Assembly (NCBI RefSeq): GCF_000023325.1
Contig: NC_012785.1
Coordinates: 1,798,001 to 1,862,000 of the forward strand
Length of the DNA: 64,000 nucleotides
Origin: Kosmotoga olearia TBF 19.5.1
GTDB lineage: Bacteria > Thermotogota > Thermotogae > Petrotogales > Kosmotogaceae
Direction: 5' to 3'
The notes under the pieces were generated by a model, which saw only the letters and a program-made list of their open reading frames with translations, was not told the DNA's origin and did not search any database. The position numbers and the translations under genes were made by a program. Below are positions 3,371 to 35,502 of this stretch, piece after piece. Positions within the stretch are counted from its first letter, which is position 1, and each line of letters starts with the position of its first letter.

Positions 3371-4708
3371 GTGCAGAGAGTTTATATATTGAATGAGCAG
3401 ATGACACCGGCATTGTTTAAACTTGCGTGGCCTACCATCCTTTCTATGCTGTTCCAGACGCTGTACAACGTCATAGATGCTTTCTGGCTGGGAAAGTTGG
3501 GAAAGATAGCCATTTCAGCTCCAACGATAGCGTGGCCTGCCATATTTCTTTTGATTTCTCTTGGGAGTGGTCTCGGGGTTGCCGGACTTGCGATGGTATC
3601 CCAGTATGTTGGGGCGGGGGATTTCAAGAAAGCGTCAAAAGCTGCAGGACAGATCATATTGATAAGTACAATATTTGCGACAGTTATTGGGATTATTGGT
3701 GGAATATTCAGTGGTGGTATTTTGAAGCTCATGAGGATTCCACCGGAGATGTTTGACAGCACCAGGATCTATATGCAAACCATATTCTTTGGTGCCCCAT
3801 TAACCTTTGGAACTTTTGCTATTGCGTCCCTGTTTTCCGGTTGGGGTGATACAGTTACCCCAATGATATTAACGGGTCTGTCGGTTCTTTTCAACGCCGT
3901 GCTAGACCCTCTGATGATTTTCGGTATCGGTTTTCCTCGGTTTGAAGTATTTGGAGCTGCACTGGCAACAGTTATATCCCGTGGAGTGGTTGTCATTTTC
4001 GCGCTGTACATACTTTTTAGTGGTAGACGGGGAATAAAACTGACGTTTCACGATATGGTGCCAGATGTTTATATGATCAAGAAAATATTTTCAATTGGGT
4101 TTCCATCATCGTTGGGGCAATCAGTTACCGCTTTTGCCTTTTTAATAATAATGGCAATAATATCCAGATTTGGGCCTGTTGCCACTGCTGCAGTGGGTGT
4201 TGGTAATAGGGTTACTTCTATTGCGACAATGTTTTCTTTCGGCCTTGCACAGGCAACATCAGCTATGGTTGGTCAGTACCTCGGGGCAGAAAGAAATGAC
4301 GATGCTTACAGGGTTGTATGGAAATCTGCGGGAATAAATATGGTTATTGTGGGTGCTATGTGTACTGGAACTTTTTTCTTTGGCAAAGAAGTAACCGCGT
4401 TCTTTATAAATGAACCGGATGTACTGGTTGAGGGATTCCGGTATTTTCGGATCGTGTCTCTTTCAATTCCATTTTATGCCACTTTCAATATATTCGATGC
4501 TGCTTTGAGGGGTTCCGGTTATACGGTCGCTTCTATGATTTTGAATATCGTCAGGCTTTGGGGTATACGCCTACCTCTAATATACTTATTTGGGTTGTCA
4601 ATGGGAACTCTTGGAATCTGGTATGCAATGCTGATCAGTAACATTTCTATCGCAATTGCAGCTGCTTTTGTTATAAGTTCTAAAAAATGGCTTAAAAAGG
4701 TGATATAG
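3371..4708 (+). CDS. MATE family multidrug/toxin efflux transporter
   Basis: This 445-residue protein is almost entirely hydrophobic, with about twelve predicted membrane segments in two similar halves, and matches the MATE exporters (NorM/DinF/MepA type) that expel cationic compounds using a Na+ or H+ gradient. Typical MATE stretches are visible near the N-terminus (FQTLYNVIDAFWLGKLG) and in the second half (GVGNRVTSIATMFSFG and MVGQYLGAERNDDAYR). Length equals the family norm. The start is a GTG preceded by a G-rich stretch (TGGGGG). It stands alone between two terminators, so it is probably monocistronic. The substrate cannot be told from sequence. Confidence 0.93.
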   Translation: MQRVYILNEQMTPALFKLAWPTILSMLFQTLYNVIDAFWLGKLGKIAISAPTIAWPAIFLLISLGSGLGVAGLAMVSQYVGAGDFKKASKAAGQIILISTIFATVIGIIGGIFSGGILKLMRIPPEMFDSTRIYMQTIFFGAPLTFGTFAIASLFSGWGDTVTPMILTGLSVLFNAVLDPLMIFGIGFPRFEVFGAALATVISRGVVVIFALYILFSGRRGIKLTFHDMVPDVYMIKKIFSIGFPSSLGQSVTAFAFLIIMAIISRFGPVATAAVGVGNRVTSIATMFSFGLAQATSAMVGQYLGAERNDDAYRVVWKSAGINMVIVGAMCTGTFFFGKEVTAFFINEPDVLVEGFRYFRIVSLSIPFYATFNIFDAALRGSGYTVASMILNIVRLWGIRLPLIYLFGLSMGTLGIWYAMLISNISIAIAAAFVISSKKWLKKVI

Positions 4709-4754
4709 AGAACAAAAGCCGTGGATACGCCACAGCTTTTGTTCTGTTTTTTTT
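4709..4754 (+). terminator. Intrinsic terminator after MATE gene
   Basis: A long hairpin starts just after the stop codon: AGAACAAAAGC pairs with GCTTTTGTTCT, and after one mismatch GTGG pairs with CCAC. A run of eight T residues follows. Confidence 0.9.
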
Positions 4755-4763
4755 GAGGGTGAA

Positions 4764-5864
4764 TTAGACAGTGATCAGAGAAAGAGTCTCTTCGTAATCA
4801 TCAAGCCAGTATGCTTCAGGATTTCTTTTCAGTATCAGGAATTTGTTGTAGTTTTCGGGTTTAGCCGCCCTATGGTATTTCATATAAATATGTTCGTCAT
4901 CAAGACCAACAACTTCAATTTTTCCTGTCATATGGGACATTGCAAAACGTGCTCTTTTAGCTAATCCTGAAACCATTGCGGTCGCTTTTCTGAAGATCTC
5001 GTACCCTTCTTCGATCGGAACAGAGTAAGCTTTGTTACCTTTTGTCGGTCGGCATTGGAAAACATAATAAGGTGGAACCCCTATAAAGGAAAGTTTTCTG
5101 AACAGTTCAGCGAGTGTTTCTGGACTATCATTAATTCCGCGGATCAACGGAGTCTGGTTTGCCAGTTCTGTGCCTGCTTCTTTAAGGAGATTGATTGCTT
5201 CGATGGCAACATCCGTTATCTCTCTTGGGTGGTTGAATTGAGTCATTATGTAAATACGTTTTTTGGGAGTACTGTATTTTTTGAGTAGTTCTATGAGCTT
5301 TGGATCGTCGATAATCCTATAAGGGTTGAAAGCGACCATCTTTGTTCCAATTCTAATAATCTGAACGTGATCAATTTTTCGCAACCTGCTTATTATGTTT
5401 TCCAATTTACTTGTTGAAAGCATCAACGGATCTCCACCAGAGAGCAAAACATTCGTAATCTCTTTGTGTTTTTTTATGTATTCCAATCCGGGTTCAACAT
5501 CAATCATGATTTCCCGATTTCCAGCAAGAAAAACCCTCTTTCTAAAACAGAAACGGCAAATGCCGCCGCAAACACGTGAAACGAGCATCAGAGCAGTATC
5601 TTTGTATTTATGTTCCAGCCCGGGTGCAACCGTATACTTGTGCTCGTTGGAAGCGTCGAGTTCTCCCCATTCGATGAGTTCATCCATCGATGGAATGATT
5701 ATCCTTTTGATGGGATCGTTGGGATCGTCCCATTTGATTAAATTCAAGTAGTATTCGTTAGTCCTGAATACAAATTTTTCCGTAACCTTTTTTAGCTTTT
5801 CTTTTTCAGTTTTATCGAGTTGAGAAATCTGGTCAATTCTGGTGAGATATTTTGGATTACCCAC
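4764..5864 (-). CDS. KamA-family radical SAM aminomutase (lysine 2,3-aminomutase-like)
   Basis: The protein carries the radical-SAM cluster motif CGGICRFC (CxxxCxxC) near residue 105, a GGDP motif after it, and a C-terminal SHMTGKIEVVGL stretch that holds the PLP-binding lysine in the lysine 2,3-aminomutase family. These enzymes use SAM, a 4Fe-4S cluster and PLP to move an amino group from the alpha to the beta carbon. The frame is open further upstream, but I place the start at the GTG at 5864 because GGAGGTG lies 8 nt before it; this gives 366 residues. The acetyltransferase AblB, which would point to N-acetyl-beta-lysine (osmolyte) synthesis, is not next door. Glutamate aminomutase activity is the main alternative. 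Confidence 0.87.
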   Translation of the reverse strand: MGNPKYLTRIDQISQLDKTEKEKLKKVTEKFVFRTNEYYLNLIKWDDPNDPIKRIIIPSMDELIEWGELDASNEHKYTVAPGLEHKYKDTALMLVSRVCGGICRFCFRKRVFLAGNREIMIDVEPGLEYIKKHKEITNVLLSGGDPLMLSTSKLENIISRLRKIDHVQIIRIGTKMVAFNPYRIIDDPKLIELLKKYSTPKKRIYIMTQFNHPREITDVAIEAINLLKEAGTELANQTPLIRGINDSPETLAELFRKLSFIGVPPYYVFQCRPTKGNKAYSVPIEEGYEIFRKATAMVSGLAKRARFAMSHMTGKIEVVGLDDEHIYMKYHRAAKPENYNKFLILKRNPEAYWLDDYEETLSLITV

Positions 5865-34049: not shown

Positions 34050-34228
34050 GAATTTTGCTCCTGAACTAAATCTTGACAACAGTGAGGTGTTATCTATCAC
34101 ATTATAATATTTTCCTATTTTCAAAGAAAAGTATATCAATGTCTCTCGCTAAAAACGAACAATACAGAAACCCTGAATCTTGAATATCAGAATAACCATT
34201 GTACCCTCTGTTTGAGGAGGGGATGGTT
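34050..34228. promoter_or_regulatory. Divergent promoter region of the regulator and the peptide/sensor operon
   Basis: ATTATAAT at 34101-34108 provides a TATAAT on each strand; TTGACA (34074-34079) lies upstream on the plus strand but at 23-bp spacing, so pairing is doubtful. A second plus-strand option is TTGAAT at 34180-34185 with a weak -10. No operator is obvious. Confidence 0.35.
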
Positions 34229-34453
34229 ATGGTGAAGAAAGGGTTGATTTCGGAACTCGTAATAGTTTTGGTAGTGTTTCTCTGGTTTCTAATGGGTTCA
34301 ACAACCGGTGTGAATATTTCTGTCAGTGATTACGACCCGCCTGATGGAGAGGTTGTGGATGGAGTTATTTTCACAACGCCGTGTATCGTGGATTACGATC
34401 CACCCGATGGGGAAGTTGTGGATGGAGTTTCAGAATTCAGGTTTGAATTGTGA
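34229..34453 (+). CDS. Small exported protein with a duplicated 13-residue peptide
   Basis: A 74-residue ORF with a basic N-terminus (MVKKGL) and a long hydrophobic core (ISELVIVLVVFLWFLMG), a signal peptide or anchor. The mature part holds DYDPPDGEVVDGV twice, separated by 8 residues (IFTTPCIV). The two 39-bp copies differ at five bases, all third codon positions and all silent, so the peptide has been kept by selection. GAGGAGGGG precedes; the ATG at 34229 has 8-nt spacing. It could be a peptide-signal precursor, a structural peptide, or the remnant of an Ig-like surface protein (PPDGEVV resembles Ig-module starts). Confidence 0.65.
   Translation: MVKKGLISELVIVLVVFLWFLMGSTTGVNISVSDYDPPDGEVVDGVIFTTPCIVDYDPPDGEVVDGVSEFRFEL
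34328..34429 (+). repeat. Two 39-bp direct copies encoding the same 13-residue peptide
   Basis: Copies at 34328-34366 and 34391-34429, 63 bp apart start to start; 34 of 39 bases agree and all five differences are synonymous. Confidence 0.9.
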
Positions 34454-34466
34454 AGGGAGAGATTTC

Positions 34467-34577
34467 ATGGCACCAAAAGCAAAGGATAGTAGTAACAGTA
34501 CGTCACTTGTTAAAGAACTTGAAGAAGAAACGGAATCAATTGTTGAAGAGGTTTACGATGAACAAGTAGTGTTTTAG
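34467..34577 (+). CDS. 36-residue acidic small protein
   Basis: ATG at 34467 has AGGGAG 8 nt upstream and an in-frame TAG at 34575. The product is soluble and acidic, with a Ser/Thr-rich start (KDSSNSTSLV) then a helical stretch (KELEEETESIVEEVYDEQVV). No family is recognised. It starts 13 bp after the repeat-peptide gene and 64 bp before the sensor gene, so it is likely in the same transcript. Being so short, it may be a non-coding stretch, but the good ribosome binding site argues for translation. Confidence 0.5.
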   Translation: MAPKAKDSSNSTSLVKELEEETESIVEEVYDEQVVF

Positions 34578-34641: not shown

Positions 34642-35502
34642 ATGAATTTTTTTAGCCTGCTGTTGTTCTCAAGCTTTTTCAGTTTAGTTGCTTTGGGAGC
34701 AGTAACTGAGAGAGTTTTGGTGGTTGGTGTTGAGAATCCACCGTATTCTTTTTATGATAAATCAGGAGAACCCCAAGGAATTAGCGTAGATATGTGGAAG
34801 CTTTGGTCTGAAAAAATGGGGATAGAAGTTGAATACATAATTATGGATGATGAGCAAGCAGAACGTATGGTGAAATTAGGGACAGCTGATATCACAGATG
34901 GTCTTCTTCGTTCTGAGGAAAATGAAAAGTACTTCGACTTTTCACAACCCTATTTGAAGGAAACGGTTAACATCTACTATCATAAAATGTTATCAGGGAT
35001 AGGTTCTCCAAGGGATCTTTCTGGTTTTACAGTAGCTGTTGTTAGAAGTGAGCCTTTTTCAAATGATTTGCCCAAAGAAAACATAAATATCCAATATTAT
35101 GATTCCTGCGAAGAGGTAATAAAAGCCGTTGTGGAAGGAAAGGTGAAGATATTCATAATGAACGATATTTCAGCAAGTTATTATTTGATAAAGTACGGTA
35201 TAGAAGATGAATTCAAGAAGACCTCACCTTCCTTTTTGCAAAATTTGTATGCTGCCGTAAAAAAGGGAAAAAAAGAGCTACTCGAAACGGTTAATAAAGG
35301 CTTGAAGCAGATAACACTTGGTGAGAGAAGGGAAATAATAGAAAAGTGGAACGGTGTAGTACCATTCAATAGAGAATTGAAAAAGTATTACTGGTTAGCG
35401 GGAATTTTGGCACTTGTCTTTTTTCATATGGTAGTCTTGAAAATGATATACAGTTATTTTGAAAAAAACTCTTTAGAATTCAGAATGCTCTGGAGAAGAT
35501 GA
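34642..35502 (+). CDS. Membrane-anchored periplasmic binding domain sensor (5' half of a split HD-GYP receptor)
   Basis: A 286-residue protein: signal peptide (~1-19), one family 3 solute-binding domain (VLVVGVENPPYSFYDKSGEP, ADITDGLLRSEENEKYFDFS) and a transmembrane helix near the end (YYWLAGILALVFFHMVVLKM, ~252-271). Only ~15 residues follow the helix in this frame. At 35463-35469 lies A_AAA_AAC in phase with the codons; a -1 shift there continues with LFRIQNALEKMKTELK into the HD-GYP protein, giving one ~675-residue receptor. Without a shift it stops at 35502, overlapping the next start (ATGA). Binding domain ligand is unknown, but amino acids or peptides are typical of this fold. Confidence 0.85.
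   Translation: MNFFSLLLFSSFFSLVALGAVTERVLVVGVENPPYSFYDKSGEPQGISVDMWKLWSEKMGIEVEYIIMDDEQAERMVKLGTADITDGLLRSEENEKYFDFSQPYLKETVNIYYHKMLSGIGSPRDLSGFTVAVVRSEPFSNDLPKENINIQYYDSCEEVIKAVVEGKVKIFIMNDISASYYLIKYGIEDEFKKTSPSFLQNLYAAVKKGKKELLETVNKGLKQITLGERREIIEKWNGVVPFNRELKKYYWLAGILALVFFHMVVLKMIYSYFEKNSLEFRMLWRR
35463..35469 (+). other. Candidate -1 ribosomal frameshift / slippage site A_AAA_AAC
   Basis: The heptamer sits exactly in X_XXY_YYZ phase (codons AAA 35464-35466, AAC 35467-35469). The -1 frame is open from 35469 through the HD-GYP ATG at 35499, and its ten linking codons give a coiled-coil-like sequence; the same frame upstream is closed by TGA at 35460-35462. The run of seven A could also slip in transcription, or be a simple mutation or read error. 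Confidence 0.55.

Follow-up and report, generated by a model that had tools for sequence, protein, structure and literature searches.

Within the 64,000-bp stretch of the Kosmotoga olearia TBF 19.5.1 genome analysed here (the window), a 74-aa open reading frame (ORF) of exported type carries the same 13-residue peptide twice, and the locus raises the question of what this peptide does and which neighbouring protein responds to it. An earlier sequence-only reading likened the ORF to precursors releasing several copies of a signal or structural peptide, and suggested testing whether the peptide binds a periplasmic-binding sensor encoded nearby. The explanation favoured here, at a probability of roughly 0.7, is that the ORF encodes a peptide pheromone precursor, whose product is sensed inside the cell by the divergently transcribed TPR/HTH protein, acting as both receptor and transcription factor; no peptide or binding has been shown. 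The features of the locus are collected in Table 1.

Table 1. Features of the twin-peptide locus of K. olearia (window coordinates)
Feature	Position	Strand	Remarks
Putative receptor-regulator, 556 aa	32379..34049	-	TPR-like solenoid ~1-290, HTH ~298-348 (with small strand pair, 293-348), helical C-terminal domain ~359-548
TTGAATATCAGAATA intergenic element	34180..34194	+	Alignment of three intergenic regions; orthologs TTGACAATCAGAATA, TTGACAATCAAAATA
Propeptide gene, 74 aa	34229..34453	+	ATG start at 34229, AGGAGG upstream, stop ends 34453; signal-like N-terminus, two 13-residue units, spacer IFTTPCIV, then SEFRFEL
Peptide unit 1, DYDPPDGEVVDGV	34328..34366	+	Sequence repeat
Peptide unit 2, DYDPPDGEVVDGV	34391..34429	+	5 silent differences from unit 1
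Second tiny ORF, 36 aa, acidic	34467..34577	+	Equal-length ORF at the same place in L060 (4075-4185)
SBP_bac_3 with C-terminal membrane helix, 286 aa	34642..35502	+	Pfam E 6.4e-26
GAF + HD-GYP-type HD protein, 389 aa	35499..36668	+	HD_5 E 1.4e-44; GAF_2 below its cut-off

The twin-peptide gene

The two copies of DYDPPDGEVVDGV lie 63 bp apart, behind a signal-like N-terminus (MVKKGLISELVIVLVVFLWFLMGSTTG). Their 39-bp coding sequences differ at five positions (GAC/GAT, CCG/CCA, CCT/CCC, GGA/GGG, and GAG/GAA), giving five synonymous and no non-synonymous changes, exactly as had been read from the letters alone. Were changes to strike these codons at random, all five would be silent with a probability between 0.0007 and 0.0018, according to the transition bias assumed. 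Sec export is suggested by composition only, a simple hydropathy rule having picked out lysines and a hydrophobic segment.

No other copy of the ORF was found in the 2,302,126-bp genome, a sequence search of 40 related genomes gave no convincing relative (best match E 0.067, 28% identity), and a Pfam scan of the ORF returned a chance match only. Had the ORF been the remnant of a longer Ig-like surface protein, the sequence-only reading would have been refuted. A P-x-DG-x-V-x-G pattern, similar to the opening strand of Ig-like domains in bacteria, speaks for such an origin; but no Ig family was matched in Pfam even at E 10, no long homolog rose above noise in the genome itself or in the 40 relatives, and the orthologs described below are short ORFs with twin units of their own. 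The remnant was rejected and retains practically no weight.

The same locus in related genomes

A search of related genomes for the motif and its neighbours, as the sequence-only reading had recommended, recovered orthologous twin-unit ORFs at the same locus in two further Kosmotogaceae genomes, where the gene in this place encodes a different peptide of the same pattern, again twice. These genomes hold the two closest relatives of the 556-aa receptor, at 41% identity in MAG Thermo_02 (L047/L060) and 38% in a Kosmotogales MAG (L048/L061). In the former, ANDPPDVDNLESV occurs twice in an 83-aa signal-bearing ORF divergent to the receptor gene, and the copies differ by seven synonymous and no non-synonymous changes (chance 2e-5 to 1e-4). 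In the latter, YDPPDIDNLESGR occurs twice in a signal-bearing divergent ORF that breaks off after 75 residues where the contig stops, and the copies differ by one synonymous and no non-synonymous change. Taken over the three orthologs, 13 silent and no non-silent changes were observed between copies, the peptide itself differs between genomes, and the spacers between units differ as well. As judged from these sequences, silent-only copies of a peptide that changes between genomes are a case of conservation inside the precursor and change between lineages. The idea of an old duplication frozen at the amino-acid level is supported by the two orthologs, which share the layout and the silent-only copy differences and have species-specific peptides.

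A two-copy GAY-CCN-CCN-GAY pattern with a gap of 34-60 nt was found in 3 of 103 Thermotogota genomes, once in each and always at this locus, and the reversed control pattern was found 0 times in every genome listed. Among the paired small ORFs, internal repeats of at least four residues after residue 20 occur only in the window ORF and in that of MAG Thermo_02 (L015 = L047/L060), besides the cut-off ORF of the Kosmotogales MAG (L048). A third receptor ortholog (L062, 35-36% identity) has only ~195 bp of upstream sequence, with the propeptide region out of view. The contig start that cuts off the upstream region of this ortholog (L062 1-20) resembles a Nextera transposon-adapter sequence.

Predicted structure of the divergent regulator

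The HTH of the 556-aa protein was recognised in Pfam (HTH_26/HTH_3), and the only TPR indicated by sequence was TPR_14 at E 0.17, below its cut-off. An AlphaFold2 model based on six sequences (mean pLDDT 87.6, pTM 0.85) has helix pairs to residue ~290, and this predicted TPR-HTH fold matches TPR domains with Z up to 16.5. The best PDB matches of the N-half include the Rap protein of phage phi105 with ERPVGT (Z 16.4, rmsd 4.8, 269 residues aligned), and further receptor-peptide matches are Rap-phi3T (Z 15.7), NprR-NprX (15.2), Rap-CSF (15.1), and PlcR-PapR7 (13.5). Because LGN and other eukaryotic TPR domains match the model as well as Rap does, the modelled likeness indicates a peptide-binding type of fold and is no evidence of ancestry.

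Foldseek returned nothing at E 0.001 or better, and no NCBIfam match was obtained for the receptor. A receptor-profile search of solved-structure sequences gave short HTH-region matches and an unrelated haemoglobin-stabilising protein (best E 0.009). The C-terminal domain folded alone (pLDDT 86.2) had one partial match, to a microtubule protein (Z 8.1), and nothing informative was obtained.

Five polar or aromatic residues (R116, H188, N197, W201, and T237) are invariant in all 26 full-length receptors with a paired propeptide, and by inference they line the TPR groove. The K. olearia genome carries seven related receptor genes, the 556-aa gene included. In three Kosmotoga paralogs, identity rises from 29-33% up to residue 325 to 91-93% beyond it, a change that falls near the HTH recognition helix; in another paralog pair it is 67% in the C-half vs 29% in the N-half. 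Paralogs sharing the C-half, with N-halves at ~30% and a sharp break, lie at L045 2462-4114 and 5755-7314 and at L046 5065-6726. Module exchange or gene conversion is a possible cause of the break, as far as the alignments allow a judgement.

Pairing of putative receptor and small ORF across the phylum

The receptor family was found in 59 of 103 Thermotogota genomes and in 32 of 38 genera. A paired ORF was required to be divergent, 25-130 aa long, and within 450 bp of the receptor gene, to have a Shine-Dalgarno match, and to begin with a hydrophobic stretch that bears Lys/Arg. Such an ORF (median 47 aa) was observed beside 70 of 101 receptor-family genes; 31 had none meeting the criteria, and no small signal-bearing ORF was found upstream on the same strand (0/101). 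The controls were the remaining genes of the window and of 18 long loci that encode at least 150 aa; among them, a small signal ORF was divergent in 6/175 cases and on the same strand in 22/175. The comparison of 70/101 with 6/175 gave a Fisher p of ~2e-33, which is overstated since the genes are related and not independent.

The 101 receptor genes are the distinct family genes with at least 400 bp of upstream sequence, and 3/73 and 3/34 with less were left out. Genes with identical first 120-150 bases were counted once, whereby some duplicates (e.g. in T. maritima) were merged. A total of 14/139 receptor-family matches were dropped because they begin late in the profile, and more distant matches were not all included. 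The first-batch total of 53 held a few frame artefacts (L045 second frame, L039, and L102), and the recount with a 25-aa minimum over both batches gave 70/101. This figure still includes a few weak TTG-start ORFs (e.g. L039 and L176), and scores the ORF of the Kosmotogales MAG (L016 = L048 = L061) as a miss, the contig ending inside it.

Most small ORFs of the family are only ~40-50 aa with a long hydrophobic segment, which would suit a small membrane protein or anti-regulator acting whole on the divergent regulator without release of a peptide. Very little credence is given to this reading, which leaves unexplained why, in each of three genomes, two 13-residue units behind the hydrophobic segment have stayed identical although the spacers vary.

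In 26 receptor-propeptide pairs, propeptide similarity followed that of the receptor N-half when the C-half was held constant (partial r 0.54; 0/5000 permutations as high), and did not follow the C-half given the N-half (partial r -0.09; 4599/5000 permutations as high). The covariation is carried by close relatives, with r ~0 in the 279/325 pairs that have less than 45% N-half identity. It would fit a sensor half matched to its own peptide, and is absent among diverged pairs. The interpretation of the ORF as a multi-copy signal-peptide precursor draws support from the orthologs and from the family's regular small exported ORF, with expression, secretion, and binding only inferred.

It was also considered that the small ORF is an exported effector peptide (bacteriocin-like, cell-wall, or structural), present in two copies for dose, while the divergent protein regulates and senses something else. 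Selection on such a peptide would likewise give silent-only divergence, and many family members lie beside radical-SAM/PqqD operons with Cys-rich small ORFs, so that small exported products are common there. This role is nevertheless unlikely: two loci (L053 and L166) carry the divergent signal-bearing ORF besides a separate Cys-rich peptide, the window ORF has one cysteine and no adjoining maturase gene, and propeptide similarity tracks the receptor N-half.

Several further observations concern the surroundings of the receptor genes. In the Kosmotoga 835-kb cluster (L044 3904-5544), a receptor gene (5579) is separated from its likely 42-aa propeptide (3904-4032) by transposase-like genes (4310-5430). 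A T. maritima-like genome has two near-identical copies of a receptor with a 65-aa divergent propeptide (L166 13874-15830 and L179 4443-6357). A 130-aa exported Cys-rich protein recurs near Kosmotogaceae receptor paralogs (L044 2959-3351, L046 4041-4433, and L049 2836-3228), as does a NosD-like repeat protein of 306-310 aa beside them. None of 30 candidate stretches of viral contigs was a relative.

Operon contents and the intergenic region

The neighbours had been named broadly correctly in the sequence-only reading, with a divergent TPR/HTH gene and an SBP_bac_3 gene downstream. The 36-aa ORF after the propeptide may be a second peptide; it and its counterpart in L060 have little sequence similarity. 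The GAF/HD-GYP protein, a putative c-di-GMP phosphodiesterase, is the likely output of the operon, hydrolysis being inferred from family knowledge. The operon of MAG Thermo_02 (L060) consists of the propeptide, the 36-aa ORF, and an HD-GYP protein, with the SBP gene absent, and at another locus (L051) a membrane HD-GYP protein comes after the propeptide.

These contents bear on whether the peptide is the ligand of the SBP_bac_3 sensor of its own operon, with the signal crossing the membrane to the HD-GYP domain. The SBP-membrane and HD-GYP ORFs are contiguous and have relatives that are single ORFs of 671-690 aa (L205-L207), and they are therefore probably one periplasm-exposed functional unit. 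This ligand role is improbable even so, as SBP homologs occur in genomes without a match to the twin-unit pattern, and the operon of MAG Thermo_02 keeps the twin peptide and HD-GYP gene without an SBP gene between them. Because of this last arrangement the TPR/HTH protein, and not the periplasmic-binding sensor, is the likely partner of the peptide.

The SBP_bac_3-membrane and GAF/HD-GYP ORFs overlap in different frames at 35461-35502. Seven consecutive A mark the break, together with the slippery heptamer A-AAA-AAC (35463-35469), and from 35463 onward the downstream frame is free of stops; programmed frameshifting, decay, or sequence error are possible.

Other receptor-family loci contain radical-SAM/SPASM and PqqD genes, ABC transporters, and Cys-rich small ORFs. 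In one genome (G090), the order is regulator, divergent 57-aa signal-bearing ORF, 31-aa Cys peptide, radical SAM protein, and ABC genes; we take this genome to be T. maritima MSB8 and the locus to be the stationary-phase TM1315-TM1319 operon (TM1316 peptide). It is like the window locus in its same-family receptor divergent to a signal ORF, and differs in the single-unit propeptide and RiPP-type output. In the favoured reading, the receptor would control a c-di-GMP (HD-GYP) operon in the window and its family members elsewhere radical-SAM peptide operons, apparently including that of TM1316, with the direction of regulation inferred.

The aligned TTGAATATCAGAATA element between receptor and propeptide genes is possibly a -35 region or an operator. 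It was not reported by the promoter scan, which gave 3 promoter-like sites vs 1.6 expected and no terminator.

Comparison with known peptide-receptor systems

The TPR part of the 556-aa protein has the Rap proteins of phi105 and phi3T among its top-ranking structural matches. Unlike the 556-aa protein, Rap is not known to have a central HTH. Rap systems further differ in belonging to Bacillota and their phages and in having pheromones of 5-10 aa, vs a repeated unit of 13 aa here. The Rap3T-Phr3T and Rap105-Phr105 systems (RRNPPA, Bacillus phages) share with the window a two-copy propeptide and an adjacent TPR receptor gene. Their propeptide is Sec-exported, a property inferred from composition for the window ORF, and selection maintains both pheromone copies in such Phr propeptides (PMC11343458).

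NprR-NprX and PlcR-PapR are like the proposed pair in being DNA-binding TPR receptors of exported peptides, whereas their HTH is N-terminal and that of the 556-aa protein is central. To our knowledge, neither NprR nor PlcR has a C-terminal domain like residues 359-548. TprA of Streptococcus pneumoniae is a PlcR-type protein with the HTH first. TprA-PhrA is unlike the window system in that the window operon encodes an HD-GYP protein and not a RiPP. It is like it in placing a TPR regulator and a small peptide gene over a RiPP cluster, other members of the Thermotogota family adjoining radical-SAM peptide operons; the cluster under TprA-PhrA control is a lantibiotic one, according to the portion of PMC5436883 available.

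As given in the accessible part of PMC10075063, four of five RRNPP criteria were matched: a small propeptide (10-100 aa; here 74 aa), a Sec signal (suggested by composition only), a receptor with TPRs (in the predicted structure), and adjacent genes (receptor and propeptide start codons 179 bp apart, divergent). The receptor length of 250-500 aa was not met at 556 aa, and neither was an N-terminal HTH with TPRs after it (PMC12700828, available in part), the HTH here following the TPR-like part. Because receptor length and HTH-first architecture fail, the system is not filed as RRNPPA; by analogy it would nonetheless work like RRNPPA quorum sensing, with a different receptor architecture and host phylum.

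The available parts of the sources place propeptide-TPR receptor signalling in Bacillota and in the mobile elements of that phylum. Thermotogota are not mentioned in the main texts of PMC10075063, PMC9765709, and PMC12700828. No published account of the receptor/small-ORF pairing was found in the open-licence literature, and a prior description elsewhere is possible. The open-licence literature gave nothing on Thermotogae quorum sensing with peptide and tetratricopeptide, and one phage-plasmid review has a single mention each of Thermotogota and RRNPP.

Proposed mechanism and significance

In the pheromone-and-receptor reading, the N-terminal signal would export the propeptide, as inferred from composition, and proteases would cut the hydrophobic spacers to release two identical peptides with a DPPDGEVVDG core. 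The peptide would accumulate and be taken back up by an oligopeptide permease; cleavage and re-uptake are both inferences, and the three SBP_bac_5 (oligopeptide-binding type) proteins in the genome allow peptide import without showing it. The TPR groove of the 556-aa protein would bind the peptide and alter HTH binding to the intergenic region, an inferred step, and the divergent operon (propeptide, 36-aa ORF, SBP sensor, and HD-GYP) would be switched, in an inferred direction, to carry a density signal into c-di-GMP turnover. This reading further demands that the peptide be brought back through a diderm, toga-bearing envelope. TPR solenoids are generic, and twin units were found in only 3/103 genomes, one of them cut by a contig end.

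The pairing across heat-loving Thermotogota suggests an undescribed peptide-based cell-to-cell signalling system. A broader hypothesis, entertained tentatively and at less than even odds, is that a class of peptide-pheromone receptor (TPR sensor, central HTH, and C-terminal helical domain) evolved independently in Thermotogota, extends through the phylum, and recognises peptides that differ from species to species. A change of specificity would come about when a common C-terminal half acquires a divergent sensor half, the Kosmotoga paralogs with 91-93% identity beginning at the HTH and ~30% ahead of it being the example.

According to the available part of PMC6022435, T. maritima was the one thermophile for which peptide quorum sensing had been found; no receptor for the reported signalling was found in the literature searched. 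If true, a phylum-wide counterpart in diderm thermophiles would provide candidate peptides and receptors for high-temperature peptide quorum sensing, a regulator for TM1316-type peptide operons, and a route by which a peptide signal acts directly on c-di-GMP. Silent-only divergence between the two units of the precursor also singles out their peptide as the first candidate for synthesis.
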